DNA of 45,983 bases, from contig JAGXNP010000005.1 of NCBI GenBank assembly GCA_019894885.1, forward strand, positions 1-45,983, written 5' to 3'. The translations under genes and the position numbers were made by a program. Source of the DNA: Promethearchaeota archaeon. GTDB lineage: Archaea > Asgardarchaeota > Lokiarchaeia > Sigyniarchaeales > SOKP01. Shown here piece after piece: positions 13,634-21,331 of this stretch. Position 1 is the first letter of the stretch; each line of letters starts with the position of its first letter. The notes beneath the pieces were generated by a model. That model saw nothing but the letters and a program-made list of their open reading frames with translations. It did not search any database and was not told the origin of the DNA.

Positions 13634-13837
13634 TATTCTTTAGTATTATTTAAGTAAATTGTATCTATTAGTGGTATAATATCTTCTGTAAAGTTTAATG
13701 AGTTTAAAGCGTTATTGATTACTATTATTAACACTATTGTAAAAGATTTTTCAAATAATAAAACAAATGGGAATTAACACCCACAATATTTATTAGTGTT
13801 CATTTGTTTCATCTTTATAATAATGAATTTTTCACGG

Positions 13838-14040
13838 CATAATACTGATTCATGGGTTGGCTGTAAGAGCGCCAAGATTCCCTTAGTAACAGTATTATGA
13901 AGAGAATAAATCCTTTTTTCTCTCTTTTTCTTTTTAATTGTTTGGATTTATTCTCTGAGTAAAATGTCTTTCAATTAATAAAAAAAGAGGAATAAGGGCC
14001 TAATTCTTACCGTAAATTCTAAAAAAAAGAATGGAGGTGA
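13838..14040 (+). promoter_or_regulatory. Candidate structured RNA leader, copy 1 (stem CATAATACTG/CAGTATTATG; stem AGAGAATAAATCC/GGATTTATTCTCT; Shine-Dalgarno GGAGGTGA)
   Basis: 10-bp stem 13838-13847/13890-13899 enclosing GGG/CCC and TTGGC/GCCAA helices; 13-bp stem 13901-13913/13944-13956; possible SD-pairing TTACC (14007-14011) with GGTGA (14036-14040). TATA-like TTTATAATAA lies about 20 nt upstream. Confidence 0.6.
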
Positions 14041-14048
14041 AAAAAGAA

Positions 14049-14225
14049 TTGGCAGATAAAGTAGATCCTGAATCAATATTGGAGTATTATAAAGATTGGA
14101 ATTCTGATCTAGCCCCTATCATGATGGCTTTTGATATCTCAGATGCCTATCCGGGTCAGATTGAAAGCGAGGATCAAACAAAAATGGCCTATCTGAGACA
14201 AAAATACAAAAAACTGTCTAAATAA
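14049..14225 (+). CDS. Small acidic protein, paralog of the 14673 protein
   Basis: TTG start placed after GGAGGTGA; the track's ATG at 14031 overlaps the SD. Protein (M)ADKVDPESILEYYKDWNSDLAPIMMAFDISDAYPGQIESEDQTKMAYLRQKYKKLSK. Confidence 0.7.
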   Translation: MADKVDPESILEYYKDWNSDLAPIMMAFDISDAYPGQIESEDQTKMAYLRQKYKKLSK

Positions 14226-14458
14226 TTATTTTTTTTCAATTTATTCTTCTCTATTATTTATTAACTCTTAAAGCTAAGATTTTGGAAATTCTCTATTTTT
14301 ACAATTTCTAGGTTAATTAAATTGATATATATTCAGTTTCAGATGACCTTAAAAATTATTACTATAAATTCATTATATTCAGATGATTTTTTATAAAATA
14401 GGGATAATAAGTGAAACATTTAAATAGCATCATCGTTATATTTATTCTAATGATCTCA

Positions 14459-14667
14459 AATAATACTACTAAATATTCAATTGTAAGAGTTATAAGCCCT
14501 TTATTAGTTGTAGTATTAGTATTATTATTATAGATGAGAGCCGATCCTTCTCGATCTTCTTTTTAATTTTTTCTTGGATTTGCTCTCTCATCAAAGAATT
14601 TATATATAATTAAATTGAGATCATAAAGGATTCCGGCACCTCAGGATAAGTAAAAAAAAAGGAGGTG
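14459..14667 (+). promoter_or_regulatory. Candidate structured RNA leader, copy 2 (stem TAATACTAC/GTAGTATTA; stem GATGAGAG/CTCTCATC; Shine-Dalgarno GGAGGTGA)
   Basis: 9-bp stem 14461-14469/14510-14518; 8-bp stem 14533-14540/14585-14592 plus ATCC/GGAT; CACCTC (14637-14642) perfectly complements GAGGTG (14662-14667). Shares GTAAGAG, GATCCTT/AATCCTT, CTTTTTAATT and GGATTT blocks with copy 1 in the same order. Confidence 0.6.
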
Positions 14668-14672
14668 AAAAA

Positions 14673-14879
14673 ATGGAAAAAGAAGTTATTGATAAAATTG
14701 AAAATCAGATTACCTTAGAAAATAATATGACCCCTATAAAGGAAGAAAACAAACACACTAACGAAAGTACCTTCTGGAAATATCTAGATTATTCAAACTG
14801 GATTCCAGGAGAAATTGAAGTTGAGGAAGAAATCAATAAAGATTATGATTGGTGGAAAAGAAAATCTATTAAGAAATAG
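14673..14879 (+). CDS. Small acidic protein, paralog of the 14049 protein
   Basis: Strong SD GGAGGTGA then ATG; C-terminus LDYSNWIPGEIEVEEEINKDYDWWKRKSIKK aligns with FDISDAYPGQIESEDQTKMAYLRQKYKKLSK of the upstream small protein. Confidence 0.75.
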   Translation: MEKEVIDKIENQITLENNMTPIKEENKHTNESTFWKYLDYSNWIPGEIEVEEEINKDYDWWKRKSIKK

Positions 14880-21168: not shown

Positions 21169-21231
21169 AATACATCAATTTTCTTTTTTTTTTTTAATTA
21201 GTAATATAAGAGAGAAAAAATAAAAAAATAA

Positions 21232-21331
21232 GCCTCCGACGGGATTTGAACCCGCGACCTGCAGATTACAAGTCTCAGCAATTAATAGGGGATAATTAAA
21301 TTCTGCTGCTATACCGCTAAGCCACGGAGGC
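21232..21331 (-). tRNA. tRNA-Thr(UGU) with an approximately 29-nt non-canonical intron in the anticodon stem/loop
   Basis: Reverse strand GCCTCCG TG GCTTAGCGGTATAGC A GCAGA [ATTTAATTATCCCCTATTAATTGCTGAGA] CTTGTAA TCTGC AGGTC GCGGGTTCAAATCCCGT CGGAGGC; acceptor, anticodon and T stems pair; no encoded CCA. Confidence 0.9.

Follow-up and report, generated by a model that had tools for sequence, protein, structure and literature searches.

The window, a 45,983-nucleotide stretch of Lokiarchaeia DNA from contig JAGXNP010000005.1, carries two small protein genes, A and B, each preceded by its own structured leader, with every feature of the locus on the forward strand. Synteny at the A/B locus extends to most genomes, which have a GH4-family gene on one side of it and a class I/II aminotransferase gene on the other. 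Gene A (14049..14225) encodes a 58-residue protein with a likely TTG start; an upstream ATG at 14031 overlaps the Shine-Dalgarno (SD) sequence GGAGGTGA (14033..14040), which is kept in relatives. The start codon of gene A (14031–14060; compared with L018–L023) is weak: relatives of one clade carry ATG at the position of the window's TTG, and several relatives have instead an ACG that is conserved, as is its spacing from the SD. This may be a deliberate low-efficiency start. Gene B (14673..14879) encodes a 68-residue protein, begins with ATG behind an SD of the same sequence (14661..14668), and is present in 8 of 25 genomes of the genus. Its reading frame is shortened near the C-terminus in three genomes (L006, L008, L014), with the leader intact.

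Homologs of protein A occur in 22 of the 25 genomes of its own genus and, at a wider range, in four of 21 Lokiarchaeia genera searched (its own and three others of the same family), and in other genera leaders of this kind precede B-like proteins of 45 residues. Searches of proteins A and B against Pfam and NCBIfam returned nothing significant, and the AlphaFold model of protein A, two helices with a pTM of 0.34, is not informative. As for the paralogy of the two proteins proposed in the first-pass annotation, direct A–B similarity is weak, and a joint profile built with both proteins finds both.

Each transcript begins with a TATA-like box and a short open reading frame (ORF). The box of transcript A (AATATTTATTAG; 13785..13797) lies ~30 nt upstream of leader ORF A (13823..13900), which comprises 25 codons (MNFSRHNTDSWVGCKSAKIPLVTVL, then a stop) and is in frame in 21/21 same-genus A leaders compared. 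The TATA box region of transcript B (ATTTAAATAG; 14415..14429) is likewise ~30 nt from leader ORF B (14450..14533), whose 27 codons (MISNNTTKYSIVRVISPLLVVVLVLLL, then a stop) include a Val/Leu run 5′ of the stop and are conserved in eight genomes, always in frame and 26–30 codons long. The spacing is general among relatives of these leaders: 95 of 112 have at least a 6/7 match to TTTAWAW 29–42 nt before the ORF ATG. Because a TATA box lies ~30 nt upstream of each ORF, the leader ORFs are probably leaderless.

Stem P1 is contained within the ORF, whose start pairs with its last codons. In leader A, P1 strand 1 (CATAATACTG; 13838..13847) pairs with strand 2 (CAGTATTATG; 13890..13899), the final codons of the ORF. 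Strand 3 (13895..13914) starts over the stop codon and is common to two exclusive helices, 3:4 and 3:4′. It pairs with strand 4 (TGGATTTATTCTCTGAGTAAA; 13943..13963) to form hairpin P2 (13901–13913/13944–13956), which encloses a U-rich loop (13915..13942, including CTCTTTTTCTTTTTAATTG). The loop is a candidate archaeal U-tract terminator and doubles as the 5′ strand of a third helix, P3, its partner being a tract downstream (TCAATTAATAAAAAAAGAGGAAT; 13971..13993). Strand 4′ (13990..14016) is the alternative partner of strand 3, with a cognate duplex energy of −14.4 kcal/mol. Leader B has the same parts. P1 joins 14459..14471 to 14514..14526, the latter built of Val/Leu codons; strand 3 (14532..14548) begins within the stop codon TAG and pairs with strand 4 (14575..14590); the U-rich loop and P3 5′ strand (CGATCTTCTTTTTAATTT) occupy 14552..14569, and the P3 3′ strand (TAATTAAATTGAGATCA) 14607..14623. 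Strand 4′ (GGATTCCGGCACCTCAGGAT; 14628..14647) gives −17.3 kcal/mol with strand 3 and contains CACCTC, complementary to the SD. The predicted fold of leader B (14450–14597) lies 3.6 standard deviations below that of shuffled sequences, and 0/200 shuffles equal it.

This anatomy bears out much of the first-pass annotation, which had described paired blocks, pyrimidine-rich loops, an A-rich tract and a perfect SD in both leaders behind TATA-like boxes, all of which are present. It had missed that stem P1 is contained in a short ORF, that the stop codon of this ORF adjoins hairpin P2, which starts there, and that the P2 loop of leaders A and B pairs with a tract ~30 nt downstream (P3). Since the 5′ half looks like a translated leader peptide, the element is not purely non-coding.

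A covariance model built only from the A and B leaders (R1) found 39 further inspected leaders in Lokiarchaeia, each with a short ORF and in sense before a gene. The downstream genes encode archaeal-type LeuRS (19), bacterial-type LeuRS (one), FrhB (seven), B-like proteins (10), a branched-chain aminotransferase (one) and an acyl-CoA dehydrogenase (one), with enzyme identities checked by HMM on representatives. With a second model (R2), matches at E ≤ 0.3 came from 64 of the 86 Lokiarchaeia genomes, and further leaders of LeuRS, aminotransferase and acyl-CoA dehydrogenase genes joined the family; E-values in these searches are rough. In all, 112 leader copies were analysed, from draft metagenome-assembled genomes in which leaders within a class are related, and all confirmed members fall within one Lokiarchaeia family. 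This genome holds four copies, namely A, B, one before FrhB (contig C103) and one before LeuRS (contig C246). The leader is thus not private to the A/B pair, and the homologs sought at the outset exist 5′ of similar small ORFs, with covariation. The FrhB-type F420 hydrogenase beta protein under the Ile-rich leader (L160, C103) carries a C-terminal TrmB-like helix-turn-helix. Separately, some Lokiarchaeia genera place a bacterial-type LeuRS under the same Leu-rich leader type (L179, L245, L252, L253, L257), and their sister genera have the archaeal-type enzyme under the same kind of leader, which suggests that the leader outlasted the replacement of the enzyme or was gained again at that time.

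Beyond the family, the only match of a phylum-wide search at E ≤ 0.05 was an R2 hit to a different Asgard family (G104, E 0.014), rejected as a false positive that sits at an ORF end, and 0/10 LeuRS genes examined from other families carry such a leader. The weak R2 matches L262, L264, L265 and L266 were set aside as chance or unclear. When the window leaders and nine related loci were compared with Rfam, no family scored above its gathering threshold, with one sub-threshold match to a CRISPR repeat (E 0.42), so the description of a duplicated cis-regulatory leader outside the known families holds.

The pairings were assessed by comparing cognate with non-cognate duplex energies in 44 or 39 non-redundant leaders. 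P1 coevolves (z = −10.1, 44 leaders), as do helix 3:4 (z = −13.3), P3 (z = −8.6) and helix 3:4′ (z = −9.8). The control pairs 1:4, 1:down, 2:down and 4:4′ gave z between −0.2 and 1.7 (the last value for 4:4′), and strand 3 against the next 38 nt gave −1.7; lower-grade signals appeared in some other segment pairs (3:loop, −4.2; 2:4′, −2.5). The compensatory changes first noticed between the A and B stems are real: among 53 leaders aligned to the model, double changes occur at 21 of 22 pairs, and 80% of cells in the P1 and P2 columns pair, versus 39–51% when the partner is slid. None of 500 shuffles reaches any of the measures in this set, whose alignment is itself fitted to the model.

Because helices 3:4 and 3:4′ both coevolve, strand 3 has two exclusive partners. 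Helix 3:4 is the local hairpin P2, with the U-tract in its loop. Helix 3:4′ is continuous with P3 and makes with it one long hairpin in which the U-tract is buried. P3 could instead form a pseudoknot with P2, an arrangement that we set aside; since P3 and 3:4′ together give a simple long hairpin, we count P3 with the alternative fold. Partition functions show both exclusive folds, with a balance that varies by class. When the stop-codon region is masked in these calculations, 3:4 disappears and 3:4′ is mostly lost in nearly all classes; predicted SD accessibility shows no consistent change with ribosome position.

An ATG-to-stop frame of 22–34 codons is kept in 112/112 leaders. A leader ORFs span 23–29 codons in the first genus and 26–31 in the second, in frame across indels, and most second-genus genomes have an ORF that reads into hairpin P2 and ends there. 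The encoded residues follow the gene downstream. LeuRS leader peptides are 30% Leu overall and 49% Leu in their last 15 residues; FrhB leader peptides are 24% Ile; branched-chain aminotransferase leader peptides are 24% Ala, with Val and Ile in addition; and B-like leader peptides are 23% Val and 25% Leu. Label permutation gave p = 1e-4 for each tested contrast. Codon runs relevant to the downstream gene are thus found in LeuRS and branched-chain aminotransferase leaders, and B-like and FrhB leaders carry Val/Leu and Ile runs, respectively. No such run is present in the A leaders, the window's own included, whose peptides are not enriched in branched-chain residues. The ratio pN/pS of the leader peptides is 0.60–0.72 in four sets and ~1 or above in two small sets, which points to weak selection on the peptide; such values suit a control-codon leader and would be thin proof of coding if taken alone. 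Drift of the peptide would be expected if the codons, rather than the peptide, matter. One genus has two A-leader peptide types before the same downstream gene (L064 and L090 versus L058–L077), SHHNTT..GYK.AFIIP and ..IRSIIKRE, with 3′ ends in different frames. The pattern resembles what an exchange or a frameshift of the leader ORF would leave.

At least two U4 tracts are found in 87 of 112 P2 loops versus 1–7 of 112 in other leader segments, and only seven of 112 leaders have them directly 3′ of P2. A bacterial-type terminator, in which a GC-rich hairpin precedes a U-run, is not what the leaders contain, as their U-tract lies within the P2 loop. In Methanococcus maripaludis, efficient aCPSF1 binding requires at least two U4 tracts, and a Lokiarchaeota aCPSF1 can support termination in that organism (PMC8716108). 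FttA prefers U-rich RNA ~30–36 nt behind the RNA 3′ end (PMC11616081).

Taken together, these features make it likely, in our judgment, that the leaders are ribosome-mediated attenuators composed of a leader peptide, mutually exclusive folds and a U-tract. A putative role in sensing amino acids is well supported by the comparison of leaders. The ORFs, the gene-matched codon bias, both pairings and the U-tract can be read from the sequences; from them we infer ribosome stalling, the direction of the switch, the level at which it acts (transcription or translation) and termination as its output. In the proposed mechanism, the leaderless ORF would encode a leader peptide of 22–34 residues; in most of these ORFs the 3′ part is a run of codons whose amino acids relate to the gene downstream. 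With ample charged tRNA, the ribosome would finish the ORF and leave, and P2 would form at once; the exposed U-tract could then be bound by aCPSF1/FttA, leading to termination and low expression, and in B-type leaders strand 4′ would be available to cover the SD. Under a shortage of charged tRNA, the ribosome would stall on the codon run; as this run adjoins the stop codon, the stalled ribosome should cover strand 3 while P3 forms, which would delay 3:4 and leave time for P3 and strand 4′ to pair. The long hairpin would then win, the U-tract would be buried, and expression would be high. The window's B leader fits this model directly. The A leader shares this RNA anatomy, though the peptide that it encodes lacks branched-chain enrichment.

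Because strand 4′ of B-type leaders carries an anti-SD, a translational switch must be taken seriously, either in place of transcription attenuation or alongside it. In such a switch the leader ribosome would move 4′ between strand 3 and the SD without premature termination. We regard this as possible though rather unlikely as the explanation for the family. It accounts well for leader B, where CACCTC in strand 4′ is the exact complement of GAGGTG and the SD is mostly inaccessible in predictions (0.15–0.31), and for several B-like leaders in which CTCCT or TTTTCTG in 4′ faces AGGAG or CAGAAAA. It accounts less well for the LeuRS and branched-chain aminotransferase genes, whose starts lack a consistent SD and yet have strand 4′ and the U-tract conserved before them, and for the second-genus A leaders, where the SD is largely open in three of four modelled states and 4′ and the U-tract are still conserved.

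The remaining readings bear on the ORF itself. Were the structure a ligand-binding riboswitch or a protein-binding leader, with the ORF incidental, the strong conserved structure and the A leaders without a codon run would be explained; an in-frame ORF in 112/112 leaders, gene-matched codons and the lack of any Rfam match make this improbable, and neither the metabolite-binding riboswitch nor the free small RNA considered in the first-pass annotation is favoured. Still harder to credit is that the leader peptides are functional products, such as small membrane peptides or type I toxin-like peptides, whose own expression the RNA controls. Hydrophobic C-termini in the B and LeuRS peptides are compatible with that idea, and against it are the A leaders, which have no hydrophobic runs, the drift of the peptide (pN/pS from 0.6 to >1) and a composition that follows the downstream gene. 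It is equally doubtful, and in our view very improbable, that the Val/Leu runs are a mere by-product of P1 pairing, in which GTA and TTA codons complement AATAATACTAC. P1 does coevolve and its strand 2 is built of Val/Leu codons, so pairing accounts for some of the run, of which that strand is a part. The bias nevertheless persists in codons outside strand 2 (32% Leu in LeuRS leaders, 29% Ile in FrhB leaders), 82 of 270 Leu codons in LeuRS leaders are not TTA, and the A leaders have P1 without any run.

The ribosome-mediated attenuator that we favour resembles several bacterial systems in its arrangement. In the ilvGMEDA, ivbL, leu and trp leaders of Escherichia coli, a short leader ORF that contains runs of codons for the relevant amino acid is combined with mutually exclusive hairpins. 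The Lokiarchaeia leaders share the short codon-run ORF, the exclusive hairpins and the position 5′ of genes for amino-acid synthesis or tRNA charging, but they are archaeal, have a leaderless ORF, lack the hairpin-plus-U-run terminator, enclose the U-tract in the first hairpin's loop, and have control codons adjoining the stop. Erm-type translational attenuators combine a leader ORF with an anti-SD strand and respond to an antibiotic; B-type leaders have the same combination, unlike the LeuRS members, which lack a consistent SD. In Actinobacteria, leuS attenuators of Streptomyces place a Leu-codon leader ORF before leucyl-tRNA synthetase, as do the LeuRS members here, and the LEU element of leuA has alternative folds and a pseudoknot (PMC1262725). 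The LEU element pairs its Leu run with the SD (PMC1262725), whereas the Lokiarchaeia leaders pair the ORF end with the ORF start (P1) and use the stop-codon strand as the shared strand. Common descent with the bacterial leaders is not claimed; the likeness appears to be one of arrangement. The Corynebacterium ilvB-II motif and ilvBNC uORF constitute a conserved uORF leader of branched-chain amino-acid genes and differ in being bacterial and restricted to the ilv operon (PMC10272879, PMC11857589).

According to a 2021 paper, archaea have no known attenuation or antitermination mechanism (PMC8448881), and we found no later report of archaeal transcription attenuation or antitermination in the open-access literature. 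Whether archaeal transcription–translation coupling and FttA termination serve quality control or regulation is an open question (PMC11616081). The present leader family seems to be the first example of an amino-acid attenuator from archaea. The fuller proposal, to which we give an even chance, is transcription attenuation by way of a stalled leader ribosome, which would set whether the U-tract of the nascent RNA is exposed to aCPSF1/FttA or buried in the long hairpin; it would be the first amino-acid-responsive attenuation in Archaea and, within one Asgard family, would control a branched-chain amino-acid regulon that includes LeuRS and two uncharacterised small proteins. The predicted signals are leucine, valine and isoleucine, and the A and B families are marked as probable parts of the response to branched-chain amino acids. 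With more than 100 natural sequences that carry a clear predicted signal and targets, archaeal attenuation becomes directly testable.

Outside the A/B locus, the window contains a 101-nt tRNA at 21231–21331 on the reverse strand, which matches Rfam with 55.8 bits and was missed by ARAGORN; its length suggests an intron-containing archaeal tRNA.
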